Origin: Pseudoruegeria sp. HB172150
Lineage (GTDB): Bacteria > Pseudomonadota > Alphaproteobacteria > Rhodobacterales > Rhodobacteraceae
DNA length: 64,000 nt
Direction of reading: 5' to 3'
Assembly (NCBI RefSeq): GCF_013184805.1
Contig: NZ_JAATNG010000001.1
Span: 1,302,001 to 1,366,000, forward strand
Shown: positions 23,363 through 38,925 of the stretch, piece after piece
Layout of the letters: every line of letters begins with the position of its first letter
Position numbering within the stretch: position 1 is the first letter of the stretch
The notes under the pieces: model-generated
Databases searched by the model: none
What the model was told of the DNA's origin: nothing
What the model saw: the letters and a program-made list of their open reading frames with translations, nothing else
Translations under genes and position numbers: made by a program

Positions 23363-23438
<76 letters not shown>

Positions 23439-23487
23439 TCCTATTTCCATTGAAAACAAACGATAATTTCTCGATCCGGGCGCGGAA

Positions 23488-23520
23488 TCCATGGTAGTTC
23501 CCCCAAATTTCCATGGTAAT
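23488..23520 (+). repeat. Left double arm site (TCCATGGTA x2)
   Basis: Two copies of TCCATGGTA at 23488-23496 and 23510-23518, spaced 22 bases start to start (two DNA turns). The 33-base block matches 38799-38831 at 27 positions; all six differences are in the spacer between the two copies. It lies 50 bases inside attL. Paired, well-conserved sites near both ends are what an integrase arm-binding domain (or an excisionase) would need. Confidence 0.8.
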
Positions 23521-23600
23521 CTCCGATCACTTTTTGCTGATGTGATGGGGCTCTGCGCTAGAAGAATCGACACATCTCGCGACCGTTCCGTGTCCGCGTA

Positions 23601-23630
23601 TTGACATATATGCCACAGTAGTGTTACTGT
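23601..23630 (+). promoter_or_regulatory. Promoter with overlapping operator for the small-gene operon
   Basis: TTGACA (23601-23606) is a perfect -35 box; TACTGT (23625-23630) follows after 18 bases as a weak -10. ACAGTA (23615-23620), 4 bases, TACTGT forms an inverted repeat covering the -10 region. A repressor binding there would block the promoter. ACAGTA recurs in the palindrome at 27101-27113 upstream of the primase gene, so both could answer to one regulator. Confidence 0.55.
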
Positions 23631-23710
23631 TTAGCAACACACGGTGCTTTCTCCCGCGTGGCGCTGGCCCTTGTCCTCCACATCCATATTCCCACGACAG
23701 GAAACCAAAA

Positions 23711-24241
23711 ATGTTCGACAAAAATGTCGATAGCTTTCGAAATATGCTCACCATTCCCGGCAACGAAGCCCTGAAATCCCTCTGGGATGTTACGTCCGAC
23801 CGCTTGCTGGCGGAACTGGCCGATCAAGGCGTAACCATATCCAAGGCCGAACTGATGGGGTTGCGGTCCGTTCGCACGTACGTAGCGCTCAATGGGACGG
23901 ACGACAGCTATCTCATGAACGTTCGGCAGGAGATCGAAGAATCCCTCCCCCGTCTCAAAAAGGCGCGCGAGTTGGAAGAGGTCCGACAACGGATCGAAGC
24001 GGAAGATGCAGCAGCGGTCGAGGAAATACAAAGCCTCCGCCCCGCCAACCGGATGCAAAAGGCACGTGCCGCAGGGATGGATCTTCCGAAGCGCCACCAA
24101 GGCCGAAATGATCCCGAAACGACGGGCCAAAAGGAGCCGACTATCGAAGACCTCACACGTGCTGTCCAGCACCTCAGCGGTGCCGAGCGACTGAAGGCGC
24201 ATCGTGCGTTGCGAGACCTTCTCCAAGCGGACGACAACTGA
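23711..24241 (+). CDS. Element protein with charged coiled-coil region, unknown
   Basis: A 176-residue protein, first gene of the element operon. It starts MFDKNVDSFRNMLTIPGNEA, has a central charged helix likely to form a coiled coil (RLKKARELEEVRQRIEAEDAAAVEEIQSL), and ends in a basic/helical tail. I do not recognise the family. Its stop overlaps the next start by one base (TGATG). The frame extends 30 codons upstream but that stretch covers the promoter, so the later ATG is chosen. Confidence 0.65.
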   Translation: MFDKNVDSFRNMLTIPGNEALKSLWDVTSDRLLAELADQGVTISKAELMGLRSVRTYVALNGTDDSYLMNVRQEIEESLPRLKKARELEEVRQRIEAEDAAAVEEIQSLRPANRMQKARAAGMDLPKRHQGRNDPETTGQKEPTIEDLTRAVQHLSGAERLKAHRALRDLLQADDN

Positions 24242-24531
24242 TGGAGTACGTATCGGCAAGCGACATCAATTTGGCCCTCGGATACGGCCCCCGAGTCGAC
24301 GTCTCACGGAAGGTCATTTCGTTTACCGGTGGCCCTCGGGCTGAAACGGCCCGCATCCCAAGCGGAGTCGGTCGCGGCCAAGAGCGAGGCTACGATGTGG
24401 ACGCCGTCTGTGTTTGGTTGCGTCGGGTAGTGGCGGCGCATCTCTTCAACGGCCCGCAAGAGTTGGTGCTCCGATCACGAGCGCGCCCGGCGGCACGTAC
24501 GGTACGGCTGGATGTGGCTGGCGATGACTGA
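24241..24531 (+). CDS. Small element protein, possible DNA-binding
   Basis: A 96-residue protein beginning MEYVSASDINLALGYGPRVDVSRKV, a layout like the short winged-helix (MerR/excisionase-like) proteins of mobile elements: a helix-turn-helix start followed by a basic C-terminus (RSRARPAARTVRL). This is inference from appearance only. It is coupled by overlap to both neighbours. With the next two small proteins it is a candidate for the element's regulator or excisionase. Confidence 0.55.
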   Translation: MEYVSASDINLALGYGPRVDVSRKVISFTGGPRAETARIPSGVGRGQERGYDVDAVCVWLRRVVAAHLFNGPQELVLRSRARPAARTVRLDVAGDD

Positions 24532-24796
24532 ACCACGGTACATCACTATCAGCCACATTTCAGATGTGCTGCACGTGAGCCGCAACGATGTTGGCGCACT
24601 GCTTCGCCTCACTGGATGTGTCCCAACAGCAAAGGGCATTCACCGGCGGGATGGGGGATACCCCGTGCCAAAAAAGAACGGGTTCGACCCTCGCTCAACC
24701 ATCCGACACCTGAAACGCGTGCTCGCCCCCGAGCACTGGTCACCCGAACGCGCGAAAAAGCTCATGGGCATGGCAGTCCCGGAGTGCGACCTATGA
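24524..24796 (+). CDS. Small element protein with HTH-like start
   Basis: A 90-residue protein starting MTEPRYITISHISDVLHVSRNDVGALLR, which reads as a helix-turn-helix (ISDVLHVSRNDVGALL). The rest is basic and has GGYPVPKKNGFDPRSTIRHLKRVL. The frame begins 4 codons earlier at 24512; neither start has a strong ribosome site. It overlaps the preceding gene by 8 bases and the next by 4. Confidence 0.55.
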   Translation: MTEPRYITISHISDVLHVSRNDVGALLRLTGCVPTAKGIHRRDGGYPVPKKNGFDPRSTIRHLKRVLAPEHWSPERAKKLMGMAVPECDL

Positions 24797-25059
24797 CCAT
24801 GTACGTCTCCATTGCCGAAATTACCCAAGTGTGTGCTGAAAGCGAAAGTTGCGTTCGCGGTTTCGTTAATATGGTCAAGCCGAAGATCCGACGCGTCCGG
24901 AAGGGTGCCGGGGCGAGTACGGCCTACGTCTGCGAAGACGTGGTGCATGCATTCGAGCATGCCGCGTTGAACTGGGACGCTGCTAAATCTGCCGCCCTCC
25001 GAGAATTGGGTCGCCCTCTCGACACCTTCCGCCGTTCCTATTTTGGGCAGCGAATATGA
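24793..25059 (+). CDS. Small element protein with HTH-like start
   Basis: An 88-residue protein starting MTMYVSIAEITQVCAESESCVRGFV, the same layout as the two preceding proteins (short N-terminal sheet, then a helix-turn-helix-like segment). It continues KPKIRRVRKGAGASTAYVCEDVVHAFEHA. Overlap is 4 bases with both neighbours. The three consecutive genes could be diverged copies of one DNA-binding fold. Confidence 0.55.
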   Translation: MTMYVSIAEITQVCAESESCVRGFVNMVKPKIRRVRKGAGASTAYVCEDVVHAFEHAALNWDAAKSAALRELGRPLDTFRRSYFGQRI

Positions 25060-25589
25060 CCGAGGATATTGGTGCGCTTCCGCTAAAAAACCAGAAACAT
25101 GAACAGTTTGCTCGGTTGATTGCAGTAGACGGCATGGGTATTGGTCTCGCCTATGCCACGATACAGGGGCGGGTGCCTCCCGACGGTGAGGCGCTGTCCG
25201 GTTCGATCCGGGCCAGCGCCGGGGCTCTGGCAAAGAAGCATGCAACGCGGATCGAATTCCTACGCGAGGAACAGGCGCGTCTCGCCCTTGCCGCAGAAGA
25301 CGAGAATCCTCCGCCCGAGATCCGAGGCGACGACATTGGTGCACTGCTGGACCGGATCACGCGTGACTTGATGCAGAGCTGCGATGTGGCGACTGCTACC
25401 GGCCACCGTAAGATCGCCCAGCAGCTCAGTCGGGTGGCTCTCAAACACGTCGGTCGGGTGGGCCGCGCCCGCCGGAAAGGAGCGGTGAGTTATGGGGACA
25501 AGCTCGTGGACCCAGCATTCAAGAAACAGGTTTTTGACGCTATCATGATGCCGACGTGCACTTGCGGGGAGGCAGCGAACGATGAGTAA
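25056..25589 (+). CDS. Terminase-small-subunit-like protein
   Basis: A 177-residue protein. Residues 10-60 (LKNQKHEQFARLIAVDGMGIGLAYATIQGRV, then a helix ending KKHATRIEFLREEQARL) follow the pattern of phage terminase small subunits or related DNA-recognition proteins: K-x-E-x-F, then an Ala/Tyr/G HTH, then V-x-x-R-I. The C-terminus has a CTCGEAA motif. If correct, this would link the element to phage packaging, as in phage satellites, but the match is by eye and weak. It overlaps the neighbours by 4 and 8 bases. Confidence 0.4.
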   Translation: MTEDIGALPLKNQKHEQFARLIAVDGMGIGLAYATIQGRVPPDGEALSGSIRASAGALAKKHATRIEFLREEQARLALAAEDENPPPEIRGDDIGALLDRITRDLMQSCDVATATGHRKIAQQLSRVALKHVGRVGRARRKGAVSYGDKLVDPAFKKQVFDAIMMPTCTCGEAANDE

Positions 25590-25992
25590 CGACCCCTCCA
25601 TTGCGGCCCTGTTTCGCATCGCTGAAAGCGAAAGCGGCGCGGTCCGGCAGTTGACTGCGAAGCTGAAAACGGTACGCGGGAAGAGCGCGGAAAACACCCT
25701 TCGCCAGCTCGCCGAAAGCATCGACATCCTTAGCAGTACGCTTTCGAAGCTGGCAGGTATGGAGTTGCCTGAAGAGCAATCTCCATCGACGCCGGGAGGT
25801 GCAAAGTGCGACATGAGCGATGCGGGACACAACCTTTTCGCGGCGAAGCGTACCATTCTCGCCCTGAAGAATGGCATATGCCCAGCCTGTGGCGGTATAC
25901 TTCCGACTTCGCGTGCTAACGCACGTGCGCAGACGCCTGACACCCTAGCCATGGCGGAACGGATCGCGAAGGCACGCCATGCAGCTCAGTGA
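25582..25992 (+). CDS. Element protein with CxxC motif, unknown
   Basis: A 136-residue protein. The first 60 residues look helical (RIAESESGAVRQLTAKLKTVRGKSAENTLRQLAESIDILSSTLSKL), and the end has one zinc-ribbon half (GICPACGGILP). No family is recognised. It overlaps the next gene by 14 bases. Confidence 0.6.
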   Translation: MSNDPSIAALFRIAESESGAVRQLTAKLKTVRGKSAENTLRQLAESIDILSSTLSKLAGMELPEEQSPSTPGGAKCDMSDAGHNLFAAKRTILALKNGICPACGGILPTSRANARAQTPDTLAMAERIAKARHAAQ

Positions 25993-26320
25993 CTGGAAGG
26001 CACCTTGGTCCGGCCCTGCTTGTCCTCTGTCCTCGACGCAGGCACTGGGCGCATTCGGCCCGATCCATTACGACCCTGCGGCCACATACGTCGGCGACGG
26101 GCGCGGATCAGCCTTCCGGGTGGTCACGGAAGATGAGGCCCGCGAGCTTGGCCTTCATCACTGTTTCACGGGCGTCCGGTGCGCCAACGGACACATCGCT
26201 CCGCGCCGACTGCGCAGCGAGAAATCCGGTCGGGGTACTGGTTGTCTGGCGTGTCGCCGCGATGCGCGACGTCGCAAAAGTTCGGGCTCATCTATTCCAA
26301 TCAAACGCGGCAATAACTAG
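25979..26320 (+). CDS. Small zinc-ribbon-like element protein
   Basis: A 113-residue protein. The C-terminal half has RCANGHIAPRRLRSEKSGRGTGCLACRRDARR, a C-x2-GH-x-n-C-x2-C zinc-ribbon as seen before HNH domains in phage proteins; the HNH itself is absent. An alternative frame (25989-26324) overlaps it but lacks such a motif. It is the last gene before a hairpin-containing gap. Confidence 0.6.
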   Translation: MQLSDWKAPWSGPACPLSSTQALGAFGPIHYDPAATYVGDGRGSAFRVVTEDEARELGLHHCFTGVRCANGHIAPRRLRSEKSGRGTGCLACRRDARRRKSSGSSIPIKRGNN

Positions 26321-26355
26321 TTAACATGTTGAGCGTCCACGTCCCGTGGCACTCA

Positions 26356-26400
26356 GTGAGCCCTGCCGCATCCGACTTGTATTATCGCGGCAGGGCTCAC
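26356..26400. repeat. Perfect 14-base inverted repeat
   Basis: GTGAGCCCTGCCGC (26356-26369), a 17-base loop, then GCGGCAGGGCTCAC (26387-26400), exact over all 14 pairs. It lies in the gap between 26320 and 26464. There is no T tract after it, so a simple terminator is unlikely; an RNA hairpin or a protein-binding site are alternatives. Confidence 0.7.
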
Positions 26401-26463
26401 CTCTGCATTCCCGACATCTTGACACCACTCCACCCGACAGGAGCCTCAATGAAAGCAACTTGA

Positions 26464-26856
26464 ATGTACCTAACCCCCTACGAACGCTCAAAGGTCCATG
26501 TCTCTTTGACCGAGGCATTGAGCGACCCAAAAGACCCATTCGCCGCACCTTGCGAAAAGGATCGTCGCGCCGCGCTGGCGGAGGCGATTGCCTACGCGGA
26601 CACTGGAAACCTTGGCAGCCTCGCGACGATCTTCAGTTTAGCTGAAGCAATTGACGTCTACGTGTTCGAGATCACAGGCGGACCTGCCAGCGGTGTCAAG
26701 CTGGACACGCGGGAATTGAAGAAGAAGTACGGCGCAGCGACTGTGAATCTTGCCCTCAAGTTGGCTGGTCACAGCGCGGCAGCCTTTCATCACCGGCGTC
26801 AGCCGGACGTGACAATTCCAACGAAGATCCTGTCCGAATGGTACGATGATGGGTAA
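26464..26856 (+). CDS. Element protein, unknown
   Basis: A 130-residue protein starting MYLTPYERSKVHVSLTEAL. It is helical and acidic in the first half, with a later stretch VKLDTRELKKKYGAATVNLALKLAG that could bind DNA or a partner. A four-codon frame (ATG at 26449, MKAT, stop) ends in TGAATG so that its stop abuts this start; GGAG precedes it. Translation may therefore be re-initiated here. No family is recognised. Confidence 0.65.
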   Translation: MYLTPYERSKVHVSLTEALSDPKDPFAAPCEKDRRAALAEAIAYADTGNLGSLATIFSLAEAIDVYVFEITGGPASGVKLDTRELKKKYGAATVNLALKLAGHSAAAFHHRRQPDVTIPTKILSEWYDDG

Positions 26857-27001
26857 CGAATACTATCAGGTTGGTAATAATACTCACGCAAATTCGCAGA
26901 CTCTTTTCAATATGTCGTTGGAGGTTCTTTGCGGCACGCTGGATGTAGTCAGGTGGGTTGCAATGTGCCAAATTATGATTGACGAGCGTGCGAAAAGCTG
27001 A
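26846..27001 (+). CDS. 51-residue small element protein
   Basis: A short frame overlapping the previous gene's end by 11 bases, with two consecutive ATGs. The peptide starts MMGNEYYQVGNNTHANSQTL and ends RWVAMCQIMIDERAKS, with a possible amphipathic helix in the second half. Evidence is its coupling and the terminator-like hairpin 46 bases after its stop. It may be non-coding. Confidence 0.45.
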   Translation: MMGNEYYQVGNNTHANSQTLFNMSLEVLCGTLDVVRWVAMCQIMIDERAKS

Positions 27002-27046
27002 ATCTGCAAATCATTGACTCGAGCGAATCGGCTCGCTAGATACAAG

Positions 27047-27082
27047 AAGACCGCCGCCCCCGGCTAGAAGGGCGACGGTCTT
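27047..27082 (+). terminator. Terminator-like hairpin ending the small-gene operon
   Basis: AAGACCGCCGCCC (27047-27059) pairs with GGGCGACGGTCTT (27070-27082), 12 of 13 positions, with a 10-base loop. It is followed by ATAC rather than a T tract. Its position after the last small gene fits a terminator. Confidence 0.6.
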
Positions 27083-27100
27083 ATACTATGAACACGATCT

Positions 27101-27137
27101 ATATACAGTATATCGCCGAAAAGTTCAAGCTGTATAT
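27101..27137. promoter_or_regulatory. Palindromic operator ATATACAGTATAT
   Basis: ATATAC-A-GTATAT (27101-27113) is a perfect palindrome, and CTGTATAT (27130-27137) is an inverted half copy. It lies upstream of the primase gene and contains ACAGTA, also found in the operator at 23615-23630. It probably overlaps a promoter, but no confident -35/-10 pair can be chosen. Confidence 0.5.
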
Positions 27138-27191
27138 GGTCGAAAACCAAGGGTTAACGGCTAAGAATGCTCTTCATCGCTTCTCCTAGAT

Positions 27192-27297
27192 CATGATGCT
27201 TCGCGCCCGCGTCTAAGCGGGAGCGAAAACATCATGGTCGATGCCGTCGGATGGTCCGGCGGTGGTGTTGGCTGCCGTCAGATACGGCAGCGGCATC
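27192..27297 (+). ncRNA. Hairpin-rich 5' leader of the primase gene
   Basis: Two folded units precede the gene. Unit one (27192-27236): CATGATG and CATCATG at the base with inner TCGC/GCGA and CCCGC/GCGGG pairs. Unit two (27240-27297): an outer GATGCCG/CGGCATC stem enclosing CGGA-TGG-TCCG and an 8-base perfect stem GCTGCCGT/ACGGCAGC with 5-base loop. The outer stem ends 3 bases before an ATG (27301). Folding of this leader could control translation of the replication protein, as in plasmid copy control, but this is inference. Confidence 0.5.
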
Positions 27298-27312
27298 TTT
27301 ATGGAGAAGACT

Positions 27313-30300
27313 ATGAACAAACATTCCAATGACGACTTCGAGCTGATCGAGTCTGAGCCCCAGTACATGAACGACGCCGAACTGCTCGGGACAGACCATC
27401 CCAACATGCAGGAAATGTTGGCGCGACCGTTCGTCTGTATGACTGGCGACCTCTACGGCGCCCGCGACCGGCGCAACACGCAAGACGGCGACTGGAAGCG
27501 CGTGGAAATGCCGTTGCTGGCTTGGCTTCAAGGCGCGGAAAAAGGCAAGCGAACGTGGGGCCTGACGCGTCACCCTGAGAACAAGAGCAAAGAGGGCGCC
27601 TCCATCGTTCTGGTGGATGCAATCGACGGCGCACGGACGGATAGTGCGATCAAGACCATGTATGCGGTCGGACTCGACATCGACTCCGGTGCATCGCTGG
27701 ATTTCGTGCTCGACAAGCTGGAAGACCTTGGGCTCTTCGCTATCGTCTACACGTCGCACAGTCACGGCAAGGACACGCTGACGCTCAAGCATGACGACAT
27801 CATGCGCAAGCTCAAGCTCAAGGAGTCTCCGAATCGCACGCAGATTCAGATGTATCTGCGCGAGCACCACAAGGATCGCTACGACGACGACTTCATCGAG
27901 ACAATCGAGATCGAAGAACTCCGCCACCAGACCAAAGACGGGTTGAAGACGATCCTGAAAACGCGTCCGCTGGACAAGTTTCGCGTGATCCTGCCGCTGT
28001 GGGAACCGGTTGAACTGGCTGACCTCGCACCGACCGTTAAGGAATGGAAGGACGTGTGGGCGGACGCGGTTACAGGCGTCGCCGTGAACATGCTGGGCGT
28101 GTCCTTCGACTCCACGTGCGCCGATGTGAACCGCCTGTTCTTCACACCACGCCACGCGCCGGATGCAGAAGACTGGTACAGCGCCGTTGTGCAGGGGCGC
28201 CCGCTGCGCTTCGAAGACATCGAGCCCTATTCCAAGGACAAGTACGTTCGCAACCGTGGTGGGGATGCCGATCCCTTTGCGGCTGTTGGTGGTGACCACA
28301 AAGCTCAGCGTGAACAGTTCACGACCGAGTCCAGCTTCGACCTGAACGCGTGGCATCGCGACTATAAAGAGCGGTGGCTGGCTGCCGACGTCATTGAGTC
28401 TTTCGCTCACGACAAGGTCCGCGTTGCAGGCGGCGAACGCCCCGGTACCGTGCACCTAGAGTGTCCGTTTGAACACGAGCACTCTAAGCCGGATGGCACC
28501 GCCACCATGGCGATGAATCCGGATGAGAATGAAGCCGGTTACTGGACCATTTTCTGTCGGCACGATTCGTGCCAAGGCCGCAACAAGCTGGAATTCGTCC
28601 GGCAGATGCTGGAAGATGGCTGGTTCGAGGAATCCATCCTGACCGACGAGGAATGGTGCATACCGCTGCCGGATGAAGATCAGGAGCCCGAACCCAAAGA
28701 CGTAGCCGCTACACTCGACAAGAAGTCTAAAGACTCGGCCATCGTGAGCGCTGCGAAAGGCGTGGCGCAGTTCTGTGAAGACGAAGGTTTTTTGGAACGG
28801 CTGATTGACGACATCAGCGCCCGAGTTTCTCAGCGCAAAACGAGTGTGCGCCGTCTTGTCGCGACAGGCATTAAGGAGGCCAAGACTGGATCGCAAATGA
28901 TCGCTGAAGGCGGTTCGGCGGATGGCCAAAACCCGCAAATCATCTTGAACAACTTCCGGGCCAATAGCGATGACGTTCGGAAGGTCATGACGGATCAAGG
29001 TGACGATCCTGTCTTGTTTCACAACATGGGGCGATTGGTGACTGTCGAAACCGATGAGAACGCCAATTTGCGGTTTCAGCAGACGACGCCTGAACGCTTG
29101 AAAGCTCGGATCGAGGATCGGATTGACTTCTATCGGGAGAACGAGAAGGGCGATCTGAAAAATGTCGAGGCCCCGAAAGGCATCGTAAACCGCATATTTC
29201 AGGGGGATCTGACGGAGTATCCGCCGATCCACCGCATTGTCAGCGCGCCGGTCTGCGGCGCCGAAGGTGAACTGGTTCGCGAGGCCGGATACCACAAAAG
29301 TGGGATTCTCTTTCAGCCGAAGCCCGGTGTCACGATCCCCGAGATACCGGAGGAACCGACAGAGGACGAAGTGCACGACGCAGTGCGGAAGCTGGCCGTG
29401 CCGTTTCGGGAGTTTCCGCTGGACGGAATGACGGCCGACGAGTTCGACGCGGCTCTTGAGAACGGCGACGACGTTCCGTCGTTTTGTCATCTGGTGTCCT
29501 TTGGACTGACGCCGATTTGTCGGGATATCATTCCGGGACCGACGCCGATCCACCTTGCGCGCAAGATGAAACCTCGGACCGGCGCGACGACGATTTTGAT
29601 GCACATGGGATACATCGCCACGCTGGACTATGTGGACCCGATGGCGCTGCCGGACTCGAAGGCGGAGGTGGTTAAAACCTTCGTTTCTATGTTGGATGAA
29701 GGCGCACCCTACGGCCTTTTGGACAATCTGTCGTCGGCGGGTGAAATTGAATCCGACGAAGCCGCCTCCGTTGTGACCGCCTATCCGTACTACAAGGCCC
29801 GGCGGTTGAACCACTCCGCCATGATCAAGGCATCGGTGAAGATCACGTGGGGTGCCACGGGAAACAAGACGGCGTTGTCGCCACAGCTTGCCGAACGGAC
29901 GCTCTTGATCCAACTCGACCCGAAGATGGAGCACCCGGAAGACCGCAAGTTTAGCCTTAACCTGAGCGACCACATCCCCCGGCATGCGGGCGAATATCTG
30001 TACTGCTTGCTGGTGCTTGTTCAAAACTGGAAGGCTAAGGGCTGCCCGAAATGGGAAGGGCAGTCGCTGGGAGGCTTCAAGTCCCACGCAGAGGTGATCG
30101 GTGGCATTCTGGAAGCCGCAGGCATTCGCGGTTTTATGAAGAACCGGGGCAAGCTGAAAGCTATTGCCAAGACGGAAGAGCCGACTTCCGCTTTGCTGGA
30201 TGCCGCCATTGCCGCACATCACGCCGTGCCCGGTGGCAAAGCAGGTGTCCTGTTCCGTGCATGGGGAACCCAACCGCCGCCGAAAAAGATCAAGAACGAT

Positions 30301-30612
30301 GCGGGTGAGTTCATTCCGTACGAATACGCCGACCATCATGTTGTGGCGATCCGGGATCTTCTGAACGAACACGAAATCGCACTGAAGAACCTCGGATGGG
30401 TCAAAGCAGACAGTGACGGGGCTATTTTCTACCCTGAGAAGGCCAAGCAATCCGTGTCTCAGATGGTGGCTGGACTTACTGACGACGTTCGCGAATGGGA
30501 CGCCAGCAAGACCGATAGCGAGAACCAGCATGGGCGGTATCAGGTTCAAAAGGTACGTGATGATCAGCATGGAGCGCTGTACGAACTGGTGCAGTTGCCG
30601 CCGTTCGAGTGA
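27313..30612 (+). CDS. Large primase/helicase-like replication protein
   Basis: A 1,099-residue protein. The N-terminal part looks like an archaeo-eukaryotic primase-polymerase: GLDIDSG (D122, D124), TSHSHGK at about 147-153, KFRVILPLW near 222-230 and DVNRLFFTPRHAP at 271-283. A zinc-ribbon-like segment follows (CPFEHEH near 384 and CRHDSCQG near 417). The C-terminal half resembles the SF3/DUF3987-like helicases of phages and plasmids: RTGATT near 755-760 where Walker A is expected, LLDNLSS near 802 (Walker B-like), and an arginine-finger-like LAERTLLIQLDP. The Walker lysine is replaced by alanine. The ATG at 27313 has a GGAGAAG site; earlier in-frame ATGs lie in the structured leader. Iterons follow directly. 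Confidence 0.7.
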   Translation: MNKHSNDDFELIESEPQYMNDAELLGTDHPNMQEMLARPFVCMTGDLYGARDRRNTQDGDWKRVEMPLLAWLQGAEKGKRTWGLTRHPENKSKEGASIVLVDAIDGARTDSAIKTMYAVGLDIDSGASLDFVLDKLEDLGLFAIVYTSHSHGKDTLTLKHDDIMRKLKLKESPNRTQIQMYLREHHKDRYDDDFIETIEIEELRHQTKDGLKTILKTRPLDKFRVILPLWEPVELADLAPTVKEWKDVWADAVTGVAVNMLGVSFDSTCADVNRLFFTPRHAPDAEDWYSAVVQGRPLRFEDIEPYSKDKYVRNRGGDADPFAAVGGDHKAQREQFTTESSFDLNAWHRDYKERWLAADVIESFAHDKVRVAGGERPGTVHLECPFEHEHSKPDGTATMAMNPDENEAGYWTIFCRHDSCQGRNKLEFVRQMLEDGWFEESILTDEEWCIPLPDEDQEPEPKDVAATLDKKSKDSAIVSAAKGVAQFCEDEGFLERLIDDISARVSQRKTSVRRLVATGIKEAKTGSQMIAEGGSADGQNPQIILNNFRANSDDVRKVMTDQGDDPVLFHNMGRLVTVETDENANLRFQQTTPERLKARIEDRIDFYRENEKGDLKNVEAPKGIVNRIFQGDLTEYPPIHRIVSAPVCGAEGELVREAGYHKSGILFQPKPGVTIPEIPEEPTEDEVHDAVRKLAVPFREFPLDGMTADEFDAALENGDDVPSFCHLVSFGLTPICRDIIPGPTPIHLARKMKPRTGATTILMHMGYIATLDYVDPMALPDSKAEVVKTFVSMLDEGAPYGLLDNLSSAGEIESDEAASVVTAYPYYKARRLNHSAMIKASVKITWGATGNKTALSPQLAERTLLIQLDPKMEHPEDRKFSLNLSDHIPRHAGEYLYCLLVLVQNWKAKGCPKWEGQSLGGFKSHAEVIGGILEAAGIRGFMKNRGKLKAIAKTEEPTSALLDAAIAAHHAVPGGKAGVLFRAWGTQPPPKKIKNDAGEFIPYEYADHHVVAIRDLLNEHEIALKNLGWVKADSDGAIFYPEKAKQSVSQMVAGLTDDVREWDASKTDSENQHGRYQVQKVRDDQHGALYELVQLPPFE

Positions 30613-30633: not shown

Positions 30634-30969
30634 GCTGGTAGGTGGCTGGTAGGTGTGGCTCCCACCCGCGTTTTTTGCGCCCGCCGATGATTTGTTGCGA
30701 TGTGTGCGCTGGTAGGTCCGAACCTACCAGCGACCTACCAGCCACCTACCAGCAACTATTTCTTAATGTTTTCAGATGGGTAATGGTTCAACTGGTAGGA
30801 TTTAGTCCGCTGGTAGGTGTTTGAAGGATTCTCTGTGATCTAAGTATTTTTAGGGAGCGAGGCTACTTATAGTGCATTTTTGCACAGAACCACGACTTCG
30901 CCACCTTTATTGTGCGGCGCTCGCTGAAAAATTGGAGGCACTACCCGGCATACGCACAGACCTACCAGC
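30634..30969. repeat. Iteron array, likely replication origin
   Basis: Nine copies of the 10-base unit GCTGGTAGGT or its complement: forward at 30634, 30645, 30708, 30791 (ACTGGTAGGA, variant) and 30809; reverse at 30722, 30733, 30744 and 30960. Eight are exact. Spacing is 11 bases in the tandem runs; the copies at 30708 and 30722 form a perfect inverted pair around 4 bases. The gap from 30613 to 30980 holds nothing else except a short hairpin at 30872-30885. Such arrays next to a replication gene define iteron origins. Confidence 0.8.
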
Positions 30970-30980
30970 ACCAGCGAAGC

Positions 30981-32282
30981 CTAGCGATCTAGAAACATGT
31001 GCACCGAAAAGCCCGAATGCTGATCGACTTGAACTGGACGGAACGGCCAAAAATCGCGCAGCACTTCTGCATGTGGATGGCCGTAATTATGGCGAGGGTC
31101 AGAGCTAAAGACACTGTTTGATGGCAACACTGCCGCTGCAAGTCCGTCGTGCCAATTCGCAAGCGCTCCGTGGTGAGCTACTTGAAAGACGCTAGTTCCT
31201 ACTGCGCGGCCAGCATTGAGATAGCTCTTCAGATTGTTCCATTTCGACGCGTTGCTCAAGTTCCCGTCGCCGGTCAACAGGATTGCCCCTCTCGTTTCGA
31301 ATTCTTTCCAACAACCACATGTGCCGATTAGTCGGTGATATGGCCAATCACACTCACAAAATCGTTGTCCTTTCCACGTGCCAACGGCGCCGCCATAAAG
31401 CATCAAGCTGACTTCATTAGTTGAGGCGCGACCGAAATGCGCCTCATAGTACCGCCTTAATTTCGCAAGGGCTTCTTCACGATCATCATCGGCACTATTC
31501 AGTAAACTCTCGCGAAGGTAAGACACCATGTTGGCGAACCCCTTAGCATCTTTCGGACATGTGTCTGGATCGTTATAGGGCACAAACTCCCACACCCCAT
31601 GAAGTACCGGGATGGATTTTCCGGATTCAAGTATCCTTACTCGCTCAACTGAATTCTTCCCAGAGACGTCCAAGTCATTCAGACCTGACTCCGAAATGCC
31701 GTCACCGGGCCCGTCATCCTTTTCCCGATCTTCAGAATCTTCCAATGTCGGAGGTGGGAAGATGGGTTCGGGTCTGATGGGCGGTCCGTCTCCTTCGGAC
31801 GGTCGAACAAACAACACACGATCAAAACGGCCGTCGGCTTCTTGTGTTAGGTACAAGACCGGATCGACGAAGAACAGCATCTCAGCATCATCCTCCCGAA
31901 GTCCCTGATCAAAGCCAATCAATAGACGACGCCACAGGTGAGCCCACGGCAGCATAACAGTTTTGGCGCCAACTTGTCCGAGTAATTCGACCAAACCGCT
32001 AATGTGGTCATTGTGGAAATGCGATATTGTCAATAGATCAATTCTCTCACCGGCACAGCCGATTTTTACTCTTTCGATTGCGTTGGTAACGAGGCGTTTT
32101 GAAGTGGTGGAGCCACAGTCATAAACCCAGAGGTAAGGCCCAAGGTGATGCGGTTCAGGCTTTCCTTGGTATTTGAAGCTCCGCCCAGTTCTTTTCGATG
32201 GTGGTGTGAATCTTATTGATCCAGTTGTGAACAGCCCCTGACCGACCGGATAGAATTGATGTACTATACAGATTTCAGCCAC
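30981..32282 (-). CDS. MBL-fold hydrolase, ComEC/Rec2-like
   Basis: A 433-residue protein with a metallo-beta-lactamase fold. The metal-binding motif is HFHNDH (H88, H90, D92, H93), with DCGS (55-58) before it, LLTGDGN and VFQVAHHGA later, and a final HNYGHPH segment. It opens FYPVGQG, as in ComEC/Rec2-type nuclease domains. A long insertion rich in acidic residues separates the halves. No signal peptide or membrane helices. Stand-alone MBL proteins occur in several defence loci, but there is no partner gene here. It is the only leftward gene in the centre of the element. Confidence 0.75.
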   Translation of the reverse strand: MAEICIVHQFYPVGQGLFTTGSIRFTPPSKRTGRSFKYQGKPEPHHLGPYLWVYDCGSTTSKRLVTNAIERVKIGCAGERIDLLTISHFHNDHISGLVELLGQVGAKTVMLPWAHLWRRLLIGFDQGLREDDAEMLFFVDPVLYLTQEADGRFDRVLFVRPSEGDGPPIRPEPIFPPPTLEDSEDREKDDGPGDGISESGLNDLDVSGKNSVERVRILESGKSIPVLHGVWEFVPYNDPDTCPKDAKGFANMVSYLRESLLNSADDDREEALAKLRRYYEAHFGRASTNEVSLMLYGGAVGTWKGQRFCECDWPYHRLIGTCGCWKEFETRGAILLTGDGNLSNASKWNNLKSYLNAGRAVGTSVFQVAHHGALANWHDGLAAAVLPSNSVFSSDPRHNYGHPHAEVLRDFWPFRPVQVDQHSGFSVHMFLDR

Positions 32283-32924
32283 GTGACGATCTTTCCTTTC
32301 CGTTTCTCAACCACATTTAGCAGTTGATTCAGCCTTGTTCCAACCTGTTAGTAAAGGCGAAATACTTCGATTGTGTCGGAGTTTTGGTCAGATGAGCACC
32401 TTTGTTTGGTCACACTGCCGACGGTGAAAAACCAACATTAAGTCGCTGCGGGAGACTTGGTTGAAATAAAAGTTCACCGTTACGAGTTTTGCGCAATAAT
32501 TTCTCAAATTATCTTGGCTTAATCGCGAACCAAGATGCAATCCGTTTTGACGTTTTGACGTTTTGACGTTTTTCCGTTTTGGCAAGATCAAATCACAATT
32601 TTGAAATTCCGCCTAAACCAACCGCCATTCCGATCTTCTCGAAACTGCAGGAGAATAGGTCCGTATCGGTTCTATGGTGACGTTGGGTATGCGATAGTAT
32701 GCCGAATCGGCTTATTTCGGCTGAAGTCGAGTCAAGACAATTATTTTCGGCCAATAATAGTAAATCACGTATACGAGATTAACAGAATCGGTTAAGCTGA
32801 TTGTCGTCATTTCGGTTAACAGGAGGCGCTTTTGAGAGCGCCGCCTTAGCCTCCCAGAATGCTAGGAGATAATCCTCCGACCCAGTTAGGAACCGGCGAG
32901 GCGTTAGGAGAAGGTGGTGGCAGT
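32283..32924. other. AT-rich non-coding gap with tandem repeat
   Basis: No convincing gene. At 32543-32580 the unit CGTTTTGA is repeated three times, followed by partial copies. The MBL gene's promoter and that of the serine recombinase must lie in this region, since the two diverge. GC is clearly lower than in the flanking chromosome. Confidence 0.6.
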
Positions 32925-33608
32925 ATGGAAACGTATGTTTATCGCAGAGTTTCGAGCCTTGATCAGATCGAGGGAACGTCCCTCAATGAACAAAGCCGTA
33001 AATGCTTGGCAACGGCAGTTATAGGTGACTTGGTGGTCACCCGAACCTTCACTGATGCCGGAATCAGCGGTGCAACGCCTCTCTGTGAACGTCCTGCGGG
33101 CGCTGACATGCTCGCCACCGTCCAACCCGGTGACACGATCATCGCATACAAGATCGACCGCTTATTCCGAAACAGCGCTGACGCGCTCTCGACCGTCGAG
33201 GAATGGAAGAAGCTGGGAATACAACTGATTATCGCCGACTTCGGCGCGGACCCTGTGACAGAGAACGGTACTTCCAAGCTGTTGTTCGGTATCCTCAGCA
33301 TGGTTGCTGAATTTGAACGTGACATCCTTCGCCAACGTGTCTCGGAGGGCAGGGCGGCCAAGAAGGCCGCTGGCGGCCATATAGGTGGCTCTGCACCGTT
33401 CGGATACCGGAAGCTCGGGAAAGGCCGTGATGCCATACTGGAAGCGATCCCCGCCGAACAGGAGGCCATCAAGTCGATGGTTGCCATGCAAGAACGCGGC
33501 ATGACGTTGAGGGAGATCAGCGCTGCGCTGAAAGCCGATGGCCACCAGCTCTCGCATGTGTCTGTCGGGAAGGTGCTCAAGCGCCAAGAGGCACAACTAT
33601 GCAGCTAG
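32925..33608 (+). CDS. Serine recombinase of the resolvase/invertase type
   Basis: A 227-residue small serine recombinase. Catalytic serine is S10 in YRRVSSLDQ; the conserved active-site region continues with DAGISGATPLCERPAGADML, YKIDRLFRNSADAL and MVAEFERDILRQRVSEGRA. The C-terminal helix-turn-helix is MTLREISAALKADGHQLSHVSVGKVL. The start is METYVYRR; an upstream ATG at 32859 is less likely because the fold begins here. It may resolve multimers of the element or invert a segment; no clear pair of crossover sites was identified. Confidence 0.88.
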   Translation: METYVYRRVSSLDQIEGTSLNEQSRKCLATAVIGDLVVTRTFTDAGISGATPLCERPAGADMLATVQPGDTIIAYKIDRLFRNSADALSTVEEWKKLGIQLIIADFGADPVTENGTSKLLFGILSMVAEFERDILRQRVSEGRAAKKAAGGHIGGSAPFGYRKLGKGRDAILEAIPAEQEAIKSMVAMQERGMTLREISAALKADGHQLSHVSVGKVLKRQEAQLCS

Positions 33609-34321: not shown

Positions 34322-34960
34322 TTGGAGAGCAAACACGACCGTTGCAAACTTTTGGGAACCGCCGATCTTAAAGAGCGCGGATGGACCGACGGCTTGATGA
34401 AGAGGCACTTGCCTGATCCCGACGACTACCGCGACAATCCTCACTACAAGTGCGCGTCGCCGATGAAATTTTGGCTTATAAGCACCATCAAAAAAATCGA
34501 ACGGCGCAAGAGCTTCCAAGAGGATGCAGCGCGCAGTCTCAAACGGTCGGTGTCCGCGAAAATGGCCGCACCGAAAGCCAAAGAGACGCGCGCCAAGGCG
34601 TTGCAACATGACGTTGAATCTATTCTGCCGGAAGCACTTCGGGACGGGCTGTTGTTTGATACACCGTCGCTCAAAGCCGTAGAAATTGCGGTTATCGAGC
34701 AGTTGCGTGACCCGCACCACCGCAATCTGGTGAACTATCTGCGGCATGAGTGCACGGCATACGATTACTATTCGCAGTTTCTGTATGGTGCTGCGCTGGA
34801 CGAATATCGCGGCGCAGTGTTGGACTCCATCGCCAAGGAGTACAAGCGCTTGGCCTGTGAATGCGCCAAACAGAAAGACGCTTGGGTACAAACCCGAAGT
34901 GAAGGGCAGGTTGCCTACAAGGTCGCGCGTGGCAAGAAACTCGGACTGATCCTCGCCTGA
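34322..34960 (+). CDS. Element protein, unknown
   Basis: A 212-residue basic protein with a TTG start preceded by AGAGGAG about 9 bases upstream. Early segment TADLKERGWTDGLMKRHLPDPD is a small motif found in phage and plasmid proteins (a short DNA-binding-like region). The rest is helical with Lys/Arg-rich stretches. Its last codons form the first bases of direct repeat copy 2. No function is assigned. Confidence 0.65.
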   Translation: MESKHDRCKLLGTADLKERGWTDGLMKRHLPDPDDYRDNPHYKCASPMKFWLISTIKKIERRKSFQEDAARSLKRSVSAKMAAPKAKETRAKALQHDVESILPEALRDGLLFDTPSLKAVEIAVIEQLRDPHHRNLVNYLRHECTAYDYYSQFLYGAALDEYRGAVLDSIAKEYKRLACECAKQKDAWVQTRSEGQVAYKVARGKKLGLILA

Positions 34961-35061: not shown

Positions 35062-35769
35062 ATGGTGACCAAAGAGCACATAATCGGAGAAATCCGCCGC
35101 GTCTCGGATAAGATTGGGCGTGCGCCGGGCCGACTATTATTTGAGAAGGAAACCGGCATTCATCAAGCCGACTGGTATGGAACCTATTGGCGAAGCTGGG
35201 GCGACGCAATCACCGAGGCAGGGCTCGCCCCCAACAGAAAGCAGGTGCGCCTTTCCTCGGAAGACGTACTGCGCAAATACGCAGAGGCAGTGCGCCACTT
35301 CCAGCGTGTCCCGGCAGAAATTGACATACGCATGTATGCCCGCGAACGACCGGATTTCCCCGGTCATACGACTTTCACCAACCACTTCGGTAGCAAGGCT
35401 GGAATTGTCACTGCGCTCTCACGATGGGCGACGGATCAAGAGGATTTTGCGGATATCTTGGAGCTTCTGCCCGAAACAGAAATTCCTTCCGAGACACCGC
35501 GCGCCAAGGCGGACGAAGGGTTCGTCTACCTCTTGAAGTCCGGTGATCACTACAAGATCGGTCGGAGTGCCGACATAGAGCGCCGAGTCAAACAGGTTGG
35601 TGTGGCGATGCCGGAACAGGTCACCTTGGAGCACGTCATCCGCACCGACGACCCACCCGGAATTGAAGCGTACTGGCACCGGCGTTTTGCTGACAAGCGC
35701 GCAAATGGGGAATGGTTTCGACTTACGCCGGCGGACCTTAGGGCATTCAAGCGCCGCAAATTTCAGTAA
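35062..35769 (+). CDS. GIY-YIG (MUG113-type) nuclease with HNH-associated repeats
   Basis: A 235-residue protein. The N-terminal part holds two copies of a roughly 50-residue helical module (IGEIRRVSDKIGRAPGRLLFEKE, then DVLRKYAEAVRHFQRVPAEIDIRMYARERP) like the repeats found beside HNH nucleases. The C-terminus is a compact GIY-YIG-like domain: GFVYLLKSGDHYKIGRSADIERRV, IRTDDPPGIEAYWHRRFADKRANGEWFRL. It might act in element maintenance, homing or defence. A hairpin with TTCACC/GGTGAA follows. Confidence 0.8.
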   Translation: MVTKEHIIGEIRRVSDKIGRAPGRLLFEKETGIHQADWYGTYWRSWGDAITEAGLAPNRKQVRLSSEDVLRKYAEAVRHFQRVPAEIDIRMYARERPDFPGHTTFTNHFGSKAGIVTALSRWATDQEDFADILELLPETEIPSETPRAKADEGFVYLLKSGDHYKIGRSADIERRVKQVGVAMPEQVTLEHVIRTDDPPGIEAYWHRRFADKRANGEWFRLTPADLRAFKRRKFQ

Positions 35770-36227
35770 ACTGCCGCTTCACCCAAAAGGTGAATTAAAG
35801 TTGACGGCGCAGCCCGCCGCATGCGACCCTTATCGGGCGTAGGACGCGGAAGTCGTGACCTTCTTTGCCTCGCATACGGCGGACCTCGGGTGCGCCAGTA
35901 TCGGCGAGAGAACTTATTGAGTAGTTCTCGTAGGTTCTCTCGCTTCCACACCTGTCATTGCAGCGCGAAGTTGATTCATCGTCAACGGAAAATCGATGGG
36001 AAACTGCAACTGCTTTGGCCGGTCATCGCAAGGCCGAAACTCGCGCGTTGGTTCTTTTTTGGAAAACGCCTTTATCCTCTGCGCTTACGTCGCGCCAATG
36101 AGCTTGTCAGTTATGGTTCGAGGTCACCGTGCAGTGATCGGTCCGTCACTCTTTCCCATTCGCACATTCCGAATGGCAGATTTGGCTATGTTCGTTTCGT
36201 ACAATTTTGCCTGCAAACGACGCCTTG
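35770..36227. other. Non-coding gap between convergent genes
   Basis: No supported gene. CGAGAGAAC (35905-35913) pairs with GTTCTCTCG (35934-35942), with a further GTTCTCG copy in the loop. Short frames in the region have no ribosome site and no recognisable product. Confidence 0.5.
35778..35794 (+). terminator. Short hairpin after the nuclease gene
   Basis: TTCACC (35778-35783), 5 bases, GGTGAA (35789-35794), located 9 bases after the stop. A T tract is missing (ATTAAAG follows), so it is weak evidence of termination. Confidence 0.4.
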
Positions 36228-36578
36228 CTAAAACTGGATGCCCAATTTTTCGGCGGCTTCCTTTTTCAGATACGCGATAGCCATGTCTTTCATCATGTTC
36301 AGGGTAGCACCGCCCACGGCCTGAGCGCCTTCCTTAGTCTTCTTCCAGACGGTATCGCTTCGGATCGCTTCAATGTAGTCGTGCCCTTGGTTCGTTAGGC
36401 GGAATACTCCCTTACCAGTCTCCACCATCAGCCCCGCATCCGACAGCAAATCGATGTGATAGATGCGCCTGACTTCTTCTTGGTCTGCGCCAAGGGTCTT
36501 GACGGCAATTACGTGTGGGTCATCTTCTGCTTCGGCAGCGAACAGAAGTTCACGAATGTAGTCATCGTCTCTTTTCAT
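36228..36578 (-). CDS. DUF2513 family protein
   Basis: A 116-residue protein matching DUF2513: MKRDDDYIRELLFAAEAEDD start, IYHIDLLSDAGLMVE, LTNQGHDYIEAIRSDTVWKKTKEG and a helical tail (MMKDMAIAYLKKEAAEKLG). The fold reads as a winged helix. These proteins are frequent in mobile elements, sometimes near toxins or restriction genes. It is divergent from the gene at 36654. Confidence 0.85.
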   Translation of the reverse strand: MKRDDDYIRELLFAAEAEDDPHVIAVKTLGADQEEVRRIYHIDLLSDAGLMVETGKGVFRLTNQGHDYIEAIRSDTVWKKTKEGAQAVGGATLNMMKDMAIAYLKKEAAEKLGIQF

Positions 36579-36653
36579 CTGTCAAAGATCCCTGTGAAGT
36601 GACAGTAAGAAATGTAGCATAGGAATCGACTACGGGTCGATGGGAGGCGTTCT

Positions 36654-37184
36654 GTGAAGATTTTTCCAAAGATGGTGGTCAAAAGATTCTTGGATTGTGC
36701 GCACGGAGAGTTCATATATTTCTCCTCTGGTGTACATATTTTATCTGCAATATGTCTTCATGAAGAAAATGGCCGTCCGAAAGTCCTAATTCTAGCGGAA
36801 AACGGCTCAAAAGATTTCTGCGCACTCGCGCCAATTAGTAAGGATATGGAAGTACAGAGTATCGGATTGAATTGGATCTTGCGCCTCTCCGACCCGTTCA
36901 GCGATCCACATATTGCAGAAAACGAAGAAGGGGTTGTTTCGAGTACCGATAAAGGAACCTACATTACTGTTAAAGAGTATAGGTCAAACGAAGATAGGCG
37001 CCTGTTTTGCTGCCTAGAAAATCCAGATATTGTTAACGCAGATGGTTACTTCGAAACTAGATTTCATTTTAGAAGCTGGACAATTGAATATTACGACTCG
37101 GAGTGTCGCCGTAGACGTACCTTGGCAGTGAAATCTGATCGTCGCCTTGCTTTAGCGTCAGAAGGTGAAATTAACGAAGACTAA
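36654..37184 (+). CDS. Element cargo protein, unknown
   Basis: A 176-residue protein with a GTG start and a GGGAGG ribosome site 6 bases before it. The composition (MKIFPKMVVKRFLDCAHGEFIYF; many K, I, N) and its AT-rich codons differ from the rest of the window, pointing to recent transfer. Beta-rich appearance with scattered cysteines (CCLENPD, ECRRRR). No family recognised. It faces the integrase end-on and diverges from the DUF2513 gene; together they could form a cargo pair. Confidence 0.6.
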   Translation: MKIFPKMVVKRFLDCAHGEFIYFSSGVHILSAICLHEENGRPKVLILAENGSKDFCALAPISKDMEVQSIGLNWILRLSDPFSDPHIAENEEGVVSSTDKGTYITVKEYRSNEDRRLFCCLENPDIVNADGYFETRFHFRSWTIEYYDSECRRRRTLAVKSDRRLALASEGEINED

Positions 37185-37211
37185 TCTACCATTTCTGCGG
37201 ACATTGCGGCG

Positions 37212-38777
37212 TCAGCGGTAAGAAACGCTCTGCATCGCCGCCAGCATATCGTCCATTTCCTCGGGTGATTTGTAGTGGCGCAGCATTCTGGCGCTGCCGA
37301 CATGACCTATGATGTTCTCTATCATTCCGTCTCCGTATCCATTTCGCTGTAGTGCAGAAACAAATGTCGCGCGAGTCGAGTAGAGGCTTACTCGCGGGCG
37401 CTTAATATTGAGGTCGGTCAGAATTTTACCGAACTGACGTTCGCCACTGAAGGCCTTGATCCGGTTGGCGATCTCCTTTTCGTTCTCGGCCTGCAAAACA
37501 GACAGACCTCCATTTTGAACGAAGTCGGCAAACGGAAGTGCTTTGTCGGGGCAGGGGATCAGTCGAGCACCATCTTTGGTGTTGCGGATGTCGATGCCTC
37601 GTTGGTGCCAGTTGTGCGCCTCATGAGTCCCAGCGTCTGAGGGAGCCAGCCGCCAGAGTTCGTGGGGACGAGCGCCCGTATGCAATAGTGCTTCGATGGT
37701 TAGGCGGTAGAGACGCCGCCGCCCGAGACTCAGTTTTGATTTGGAGTTCTCGTCCGCCCAGACGGTGTGGATCTTTTCCAAGATCATCAGAACTTGGCTT
37801 GGTTTGAAGGGCAGGTGTTTCCGATCCTCAATGCTCTTAGGGTCGGATGGCATCTTGAGTCCCGCCGCCGGGTTCGTAGGAATTTCGTCTTCATCGAAGG
37901 CGTACGCAAGAAGAGCCTTGATTGCGCCCATGTAGCCCACGACGGACGAGACCTCCTTCATACGCTTTGACAAGCCGTCCCGGTACGTCTTGAGGTGTTC
38001 GCGCGTGACTTCACCGATACGGAGATCGCCTACCCTGTCCACGAAGTCTTTCAACTTCTTCTCGTAATCGACGCGCGTCAGTTCTTTGTGGCTCTTGAAG
38101 TCCGCGAAGCGCGCGTAGAATTTCAGAATCCTGTCGGGCGCATCCGGTGACACGTATGGGCTAAGTTCAGCGAGGCGTCCATTGAGAATAATATGGTTAG
38201 CTTCATAGATGGCCTGCGCGGTCGGGTCGGAGGGTGGGGTGCATGTGGCAGCGTCTGCCAACATAAGCTGAAATGGGTCACGCTCTTCGGGTGTCAGTTC
38301 ATTGAGATGCGCCCGATCTCCGAACGCGTAACCAGCGAAGTGGGCTAATCGTTTCCATTCTTGTTTCGGATCGTCTGACCGCGCGTCTTTCATGACCCGT
38401 TCCGTCTGCCGCCAGTCCTCACGTGGTGTGTCCGGTCTCCAAAGATCTGACAGCTCTGGCACAATGCCAGCATATTGCTTGATGCCCGGGCGATTGAGCA
38501 GTGCCGTCTGGGTGCGTGCTGCCTCTGCAGCTTGCTCGCTGTCTCTCCGGTTCTGGTATTCGGATACAGCGTCATCCGTGGACAACGATGCAATAAGAGT
38601 GTCATGCTCCTCACTATACCTAGCCCACTTTCTCAACGCCTCTGTTCGGTTGGAGCCGAGGCTATACTCCCAACGTTTTCGCCCTAAGACGGTCTGAAGG
38701 CGCTTAGGTACGTCCCTCAGATACTTCCAGCGACCTTCTTTCGCAGGGTAGAGGTACTTCACTTTTTCATGCGACAT
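37212..38777 (-). CDS. int: Tyrosine integrase of the element
   Basis: A 521-residue phage-type integrase. Residues 1-60 are the arm-binding region, about 220-305 the SAM-like core-binding domain, and about 325-515 the catalytic domain with R370 (TGARPHELWRL), R469 (YSTRATF; the first box II position is Tyr, not His), H492 (IIGHVGS) and nucleophile Y502 (LRHYKSPEE). The ATG at 38777 has GAGG 8 bases before it; a GTG two codons upstream is too close to it. Its upstream region contains the right arm sites, so the gene may be self-regulated. Confidence 0.93.
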   Translation of the reverse strand: MSHEKVKYLYPAKEGRWKYLRDVPKRLQTVLGRKRWEYSLGSNRTEALRKWARYSEEHDTLIASLSTDDAVSEYQNRRDSEQAAEAARTQTALLNRPGIKQYAGIVPELSDLWRPDTPREDWRQTERVMKDARSDDPKQEWKRLAHFAGYAFGDRAHLNELTPEERDPFQLMLADAATCTPPSDPTAQAIYEANHIILNGRLAELSPYVSPDAPDRILKFYARFADFKSHKELTRVDYEKKLKDFVDRVGDLRIGEVTREHLKTYRDGLSKRMKEVSSVVGYMGAIKALLAYAFDEDEIPTNPAAGLKMPSDPKSIEDRKHLPFKPSQVLMILEKIHTVWADENSKSKLSLGRRRLYRLTIEALLHTGARPHELWRLAPSDAGTHEAHNWHQRGIDIRNTKDGARLIPCPDKALPFADFVQNGGLSVLQAENEKEIANRIKAFSGERQFGKILTDLNIKRPRVSLYSTRATFVSALQRNGYGDGMIENIIGHVGSARMLRHYKSPEEMDDMLAAMQSVSYR

Positions 38778-38798
38778 AGCCACTGCCTCAAACAGAAT

Positions 38799-38831
38799 TC
38801 CATGGTAGAAGTTTCAAATTTCCATGGTAAT
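38799..38831 (+). repeat. Right double arm site (TCCATGGTA x2)
   Basis: TCCATGGTA at 38799-38807 and 38821-38829, 22 bases apart, matching the left block (23488-23520) with the same orientation. It starts 22 bases upstream of the integrase ATG and lies 75 bases inside attR. Its position would let bound integrase both recombine and repress its own promoter. Confidence 0.8.
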
Positions 38832-38905
38832 TTTGAGGCTGATTTGATCTAACATAGAGGTGCTAGTCAATAAAATAAGGGAAATTTCATCATTGTCGGA
38901 GTTGG

Positions 38906-38925
38906 GAGTCTCTCATCACCCACCA
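38906..38925 (+). repeat. attR core
   Basis: GAGTCTCTCATCACCCACCA, identical to the end of tRNA-Val(UAC). The five bases before it (TTGG and neighbours) differ from the tRNA, so no second functional tRNA is formed. Confidence 0.9.

Follow-up and report, generated by a model that had tools for sequence, protein, structure and literature searches.

We analyzed a 64,000-nucleotide stretch of the Pseudoruegeria sp. HB172150 genome (contig NZ_JAATNG010000001.1, positions 1,302,001 to 1,366,000), hereafter the window, which contains a discrete integrated unit of 15,507 bp, counted from first to last repeat base, with an integrase and attachment (att) sites and without a full virion gene set. Judged by sequence comparison, this element is very probably a phage satellite belonging to a family found in Rhodobacteraceae. 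It resides at a tRNA-Val(tac) gene predicted by ARAGORN (23363-23438, + strand), whose last 20 nt form attL (23419-23438, +) and recur exactly as attR (38906-38925, +). This is the longest exact repeat of the tRNA 3' end, and downstream matches in shuffled controls (n = 200) reached at most 14 nt, which confirms the 20-base att repeats described in a first-pass annotation of this DNA. The integrase and paired arm sites reported there hold as well. The tyrosine integrase (37212-38783, - strand) carries a DUF6538 domain by Pfam, matches a PHROG integrase family (E 2.8e-24) and clusters with the integrases of four related elements introduced below (L051, L054, L055, L062). Repeat searches identified a 33-nt repeat with 82% identity just inside both ends of the element, forming a left arm-type site with two CCATGGTA words (23488-23520, +) and a right one adjoining the integrase (38799-38831, +). 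The word CCATGGTA occurs five times on the + strand of the 64 kb, four of these within the two arm sites, and its complement TACCATGG is not found on that strand. The G+C content is 0.545 in the element versus 0.63-0.64 in the flanks. Between the arm sites lie, in order, eight small genes arranged like an operon, a primase gene, iterons, a gene of the metallo-beta-lactamase (MBL) fold, a serine recombinase gene, four open reading frames (ORFs) and the integrase gene.

The primase gene (27241-30612, + strand, with a start perhaps at about 27304) encodes 1,123 aa with a C-terminal ATPase-like part and belongs to the PHROG family phrog_10537 (E 2e-182); no Pfam or NCBIfam model matches it. Its AlphaFold2 (AF2) model (pLDDT 81.6, pTM 0.46) resembles D5-type primase-helicases of African swine fever virus and mpox in the PDB (best E 1.5e-7), as well as the primase-helicase (Rep) structures 7ola and 7pds of the Staphylococcus aureus pathogenicity island SaPI5 (E 9.9e-6, TM-score about 0.5 by the SaPI5 chain). 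Alignments reveal conserved acidic, arginine, histidine and cysteine positions, which we read as those of an archaeo-eukaryotic primase and a zinc finger. Where a Walker A motif is expected, this protein has ...KPRTGAT... and its homologue from roseophage DSS3P8 has ...KPAPGTGAS.... The usual GK is absent from both, and the ATPase part may therefore be unusual or inactive. A Walker A motif without GK also occurs in several primases of the related elements, and three others (L036, L037, L064) carry ordinary GK-T/S motifs. Directly 3' of the primase gene, eight copies of GCTGGTAGGT in both orientations form an iteron cluster and putative origin (30634-30969, +); a word count as high was reached in none of 300 shuffles, so the primase/helicase-like gene next to iterons noted in the first-pass annotation is substantiated.

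Samples of 394 genomes from the family and 390 from the order contained relatives of this primase, many of them distant, in 46 and 51 genomes, respectively, the window's own among them. The genes proved to recur as a unit, not scattered: 20 elements in 17 genomes, the window's included, have at their two ends a repeat (15-53 nt) derived from the 3' part of a tRNA gene. These elements measure 12,895-16,185 bp (mean 15,097, SD 864), a range to be read against fetched stretches of mostly 20-23 kb, in which elements much larger than 18 kb are hardly visible. They occupy genes for tRNA-Val, Leu, Thr, Phe, Pro, Asn, Arg, Met and Glu, and the genera represented include Boseongicola, Thalassovita, Silicimonas, Gemmobacter, Pseudotabrizicola, Ruegeria, Tabrizicola, Citreimonas and Frigidibacter. 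The repeat search used a threshold of 14-15 nt or more and covered loci other than L072-L088; a 7.8-kb remnant (L034) and duplicates (L027/L048, L028/L049, L029/L060, L033/L061, L126/L047) were excluded from the count. Two of the 20 have short repeats (L051, 15 nt; L129, 18 nt), and that of L049 lies inside the tRNA gene, not at its very end. Four of the relatives (L051, L054, L055, L134) sit at tRNA-Val(cac) of a tandem tRNA-Val pair, of which the window element uses the partner, tRNA-Val(tac).

Between the tRNA repeats, the primase, the serine recombinase, iterons and small-operon genes recur jointly, and no gene is common to all 20. Profiles built partly from the counted elements themselves, and thus partly circular, matched a primase in 19 of the 20, a serine recombinase in 16, an integrase of the profile's kind in 15, a tape-measure protein (TMP) in nine, and a small terminase (TerS) in eight, with both of the latter in two. 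The five elements outside the integrase profile may use other integrase families. The TMP and TerS counts suggest an apparent anticorrelation. The primase frames of the 19 primase-bearing elements are open over 691-1,267 aa. Behind the primase gene, 15 of 19 elements tested carry a repeated word, different in each element, at copy numbers (3-15) above all 300 shuffles; L051 and L054 have only three copies each, and no such cluster was found in L055, L059, L129 and L134.

The window's own genome holds a second element, in tRNA-Asn(gtt), between 46-bp repeats 15,021 bp apart (G000:C1, about 1710881-1725947; L122 6882 to L123). It carries its own integrase, a Prim-Pol primase (PF09250), a TMP, a TerS relative and a serine recombinase match. 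Its primase is unrelated to that of the window element, so that one genome contains two elements of about 15 kb with unrelated primases. Another genome (G046; L036, L045, L142) shows two repeat-bounded elements, one in tRNA-Phe and the other in tRNA-Glu; close to the end of a contig it carries one more TMP gene, next to tRNA-Pro.

The eight small genes, all on the + strand, had been described as an unrecognised operon, a description that still fits genes 3 (24512-24796) and 6 (25582-25992), which have no significant Pfam or PHROG family, and gene 4 (24793-25059), which has no significant PHROG family. It no longer fits gene 5 (25056-25589), which on profile, hhalign and structure-model comparison is a phage TerS homologue. 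Searched singly, its protein gave no convincing Pfam or PHROG match, with only a chorismate-mutase-like NCBIfam model at 0.002, far under the cut-off. BLAST relatives occur in other elements (for instance L122, 1.3e-13; L030, 1.1e-12; L125, 2e-7). A profile of the window protein and four relatives matched Pam5 TerS at 6.3e-6, and a 17-member profile, obtained by an iterated search that excluded the fused remnant L034 and ORFs of at least 330 aa, matched it at 1.9e-14, with 2cmp and 4zc3 matched weakly. Similarly, hhalign of the window subgroup against TerS of roseophages, Mesorhizobium phages and Pam5 gave a probability of 96.6 (E 5e-10), and two further small families from these elements, run as controls, gave 0.5 and 0.2. 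Among the 17 candidates, Pfam Terminase_2 matches two, and any single PHROG TerS family at most eight. When the structure model was compared with viral models, the top match was a TerS at E 2e-3, with nothing at 0.001 or better, and six of the first 13 rows were named terminase small subunit.

The remaining genes of the operon also have counterparts in the family. Gene 1 (23711-24241) clusters with genes of L027 and L030, with 23-26% identity when aligned with four relatives; gene 2 (24241-24531), which to our eye has a helix-turn-helix look, has a 41% relative in L030; gene 7 (25979-26320) is zinc/HNH-like (phrog_1081, 1.1e-5) with 39-44% relatives in L030, L035 and L047; and gene 8 (26464-26856) has a 32% relative in L028. 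Genes 2-4, considered for a regulator of the Stl or AlpA type, yielded no significant Pfam or PHROG family.

TMP genes are found in nine of the 20 elements, including the second element of the window's genome. The five TMPs scanned against PHROG all matched tape-measure families (best E of each between 7.3e-29 and 9.5e-63), and TMPs in the satellites are 862-1,127 aa long versus 1,825 aa in DSS3P8. A TMP profile searched against the 390 order-level genomes gave long matches at five loci, spread over four genomes that include the window's own, and partial, weaker ones elsewhere (E 1.7e-58 or weaker), with E<=1e-40 in 15 of 390 genomes altogether; scoring was limited to two candidates per genome, and some TMPs may have escaped it. 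The C-terminus of these proteins reaches 72-73% identity to the DSS3P8 TMP over about 100 aa (L036, 72% over 101 aa; L055, 73%, a figure from a C-terminal piece that lies in another frame). The TMP of L054 looks mosaic, its first half resembling those of the temperate siphophages Pkon1 and RC1 and its C-terminus those of DSS3P8-type phages. L051 encodes a 158-aa protein with a counterpart in six DSS3P8-like phages at 59-63% identity (60% to DSS3P8 gp041), annotated in some relatives as a neck or head-tail attachment protein.

Comparison with 50,697 phage records repeatedly returned the same roseophages. RcXuper, DSS3P8, V10, MAL1 and MD18 are the five best of 65 records for the window primase; DSS3P8, V10, RcXuper, RpAliso, MAL1 and MD18 are, by E-value, the six best of 11 for the TerS of L057; and the same six are the best of 17 for the L051 neck protein. 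The DSS3P8 counterparts are gp116 for the primase, gp206, beside the large terminase gene, for TerS, gp041 for the neck protein and gp046 for the TMP. Identity to gp116 is 38% for the window primase and up to 59% in L125, whose TerS is 44% identical to that of DSS3P8. A 56-kb IMG/VR contig of an uncultured virus (L067) encodes a primase that shares 45% identity with that of the window element and is nearer to it than the DSS3P8 protein. Because several replication and virion genes point to this one phage group, we consider the DSS3P8-like roseophages, with genomes of about 146-150 kb, likely helpers or gene donors, as predicted from these homologies. The shared genes would also fit past gene capture.

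Other genes of the window element were assessed by a Pfam scan of 20 ORFs, some of them alternative frames, and a PHROG scan of 17 ORFs. Neither scan revealed capsid, portal, large terminase, relaxase, or secretion and mating genes, the capsid, portal, tail and lysis set of a prophage, or a capsid-size redirection gene. The absence of capsid, tail, relaxase and type IV secretion genes noted in the first-pass annotation thus agrees with the family scans; the annotation had missed the packaging gene at 25056-25589. A small serine recombinase of the resolvase type (32859-33608, +; PF00239, 6.9e-32) is preceded by 8-nt direct repeats detected by repeat search (32543-32582, +). The MBL-fold hydrolase (30981-32282, -; PF00753, 1.2e-6) is cargo with weak LmuA and Avs1a matches and a possible defense gene. 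Its match to phrog_7043 (4.6e-9), the one tail-labelled match in the scans, extends over residues 55-110 only, the metallo-beta-lactamase motif. Cargo varies among the related elements, with a NERD nuclease, an AbiJ-domain protein and a kinase with a topoisomerase zinc ribbon in L028/L049, L029/L060 and L030, and the variable position that the MBL-fold gene holds in the window is perhaps a defense-gene slot. The other ORFs encode an HNH_repeat and T5orf172/MUG113 protein by Pfam (35062-35769, +), a DUF2513 protein of phrog_585 by Pfam and PHROG (36228-36578, -) and two proteins without Pfam or PHROG family (34322-34960, +; 36654-37184, +).

From this anatomy, the family and the homologies, we infer each functional step and the identity of the helper. 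The element would reside in the tRNA-Val 3' end until helper infection or induction triggers excision by the tyrosine integrase acting at the arm sites. The primase/ATPase would then start replication at the iterons behind its gene, so that the circle is copied, and the serine recombinase would resolve multimers. The TerS homologue would direct the large terminase of the helper onto satellite DNA, allowing exit in helper-made particles. In relatives, the TMP (nine of 20) or the neck protein (one element) would enter chimeric tails, probably altering those of the helper, for which large DSS3P8-like siphophages are the likely candidates. Packaging 15 kb into heads made for about 146 kb may involve small heads, or concatemers as in the phage-inducible chromosomal minimalist islands (PICMIs) discussed below. 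Tail length amounts to about 0.15 nm per TMP residue; at this ratio, shortening the TMP from 1,825 to about 1,050 aa is predicted to take something on the order of 100 nm off the tail.

Several observations weigh against interpreting the window element as a phage satellite of this kind. No TMP was found in it, an own TMP being what marks the Vibrio satellites known as PLEs, and in five of the 20 elements the profiles detected neither a TMP nor a TerS. A further 31 primase-relative loci (26 in bacterial genomes, five on IMG/VR contigs) showed no tRNA repeat in the fetched stretch; joined stretches of 35-48 kb showed no repeat for four loci (L128, L130, L131, L135), and that of a fifth locus showed one of 15,211 bp. 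The size uniformity of the family is biased by stretch length. The window TerS alone gave no tblastn match among the phages at E<=5, and Foldseek of its model against the PDB listed no TerS among its matches, which included KorA and ferritins at E>1 and nothing at 0.001 or better. A clean empty site was sought in congeners, where the right flank of the window is absent. In four of them, and in one genome of another genus, tRNA-Val(cac) and tRNA-Val(tac) are both retained and the sequence following the latter differs, which shows a site free of the window element and not a joined empty site. Lastly, the list for the TMP of L054 is not headed by the DSS3P8 group. Among its 100 matching records, Paracoccus phage Pkon1 ranks first (first half, 45%), many Caulobacter phages match too, and Rhodobacter phages RC1 and RS1 score 1e-23 versus 1e-14 to 1e-17 for the DSS3P8 group, which matches in the C-terminal part.

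This ranking suggests that the helper may be temperate, and a satellite of temperate siphophages, such as Pkon1/RC1-like prophages, instead of DSS3P8-like phages is an alternative that we regard as rather unlikely, yet the most serious of those considered. Besides the match of the L054 TMP first half to Pkon1 and Rhodobacter RC1, the window's own genome contains a prophage region on contig 16 (G000:C16:20000-39999, L124) with genes for a head maturation protease, a TMP (792 aa) and a central tail fiber. Against such a helper, the primase, TerS, neck protein and TMP C-terminus all point to the DSS3P8 group.

The first-pass annotation had offered a phage satellite or an integrated plasmid moved by a helper; the ~15-kb relatives, TerS, the TMPs of relatives and the one shared phage group favor the former and leave the plasmid less favored. 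We consider it improbable that the element is an integrated self-replicating plasmid or a non-mobilized genomic island, with leftover phage-like genes and rare chance moves by generalized transduction. Iterons, a primase and a resolvase are plasmid traits too, distant primase relatives occur in 12 plasmid records, and the elements without TMP and TerS would fit. However, coverage of the query stays under 80% in all 12 plasmid matches, a plasmid would have no evident use for TerS and tape-measure genes, the scans found no relaxase or mating genes, and the bounded elements cluster near 15 kb, with the bias already stated. Very improbable is decay from a DSS3P8-like phage, as a degenerate prophage or a defective remnant, which would account for the relatives of primase, TerS, TMP and neck protein in that group but not for 19 primase-bearing elements alike in gene set and size with open primase frames, for iterons that DSS3P8 lacks behind gp116, for a window integrase and serine recombinase without a DSS3P8 match at 1e-4 (the integrases of three other elements do match), or for two ~15-kb elements with unrelated primases in one genome.

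The phage-satellite reading of the window element can be set beside known systems. Phage-inducible chromosomal islands (PICIs) of the SaPI type are about 15 kb long and carry an integrase, a Rep primase-helicase with adjoining iterons, and TerS. In sequence layout, the window element shares this size, an integrase, a primase with adjoining iterons as putative origin and a TerS homologue, and its primase model matches the SaPI5 structures. The Pfam and PHROG scans recognized in it no AlpA/Stl-type regulator or capsid-size gene. It differs in its primase, which belongs to the roseophage family phrog_10537 and has a non-standard Walker A motif. Some capsid-forming PICIs (cf-PICIs) carry putative tmp genes (PMC12987554); in the window element these scans found no gene for a capsid, a portal or a large terminase.

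Satellite-encoded TMPs were first shown in Vibrio PLEs (Mathur et al., Nature 2026; PMC12987554). There, PLE1, PLE4 and PLE11 are integrated satellites of the large virulent phage ICP1 that place their own TMP in chimeric tails, and in PLE11 95 aa of TMP correspond to 10 nm of tail length. Like PLEs, nine of the 20 family members, as probable integrated satellites, have their own TMP. Unlike them, the family has its phage relatives among alphaproteobacterial siphophages, and the window element has TerS and no TMP; PLEs were compared here by description. PICMIs, marine satellites of virulent phages with few genes that are packaged as concatemers, lie beside fis in Vibrionaceae, whereas the Rhodobacteraceae elements lie in tRNA genes and look gene-richer (PMC10803314). 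The DSS3P8-like roseophages share related primase, TerS, TMP and neck genes with the family and differ in genome size, TMP length and the lack of iterons. The Charybdis elements, tRNA-integrated elements from the ocean, are different, being archaeal and without terminase genes (PMC12324425). No description of this Rhodobacteraceae family was found in open-licence literature on TMP-bearing satellites or on those of Rhodobacter, Roseobacter or DSS3P8, judged by title or abstract start. The impression in the first-pass annotation that the combination looks undescribed thus stands for the family in the literature searched, and not for satellites as such, of which TMP-bearing ones have been known since 2026 (PMC12987554).

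Taken together, we tentatively propose, as a possibility we rate somewhat below even, that widespread Rhodobacteraceae satellites prey on large virulent DSS3P8-like siphophages, bring their own TerS, neck protein and a TMP of about half the helper's length, and form chimeric particles with tails shorter than those of the helper by something on the order of 100 nm. Unrelated replication modules would have converged on one size of about 15 kb and one tail gene, and the window element would represent a TMP-less branch cohabiting with a TMP-bearing element. If true, satellite manipulation of phage tails would not be confined to Vibrio but would extend to a separate alphaproteobacterial family, many of whose hosts are marine, and several members of the predicted helper group are recorded on Ruegeria pomeroyi DSS-3, a laboratory strain. 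The system would offer a concrete test of why satellites swap the TMP, the predicted length change being far above the 10 nm of PLE11. In addition, islands of about 15 kb that scans for capsid or conjugation genes would miss now have names and markers as a class.

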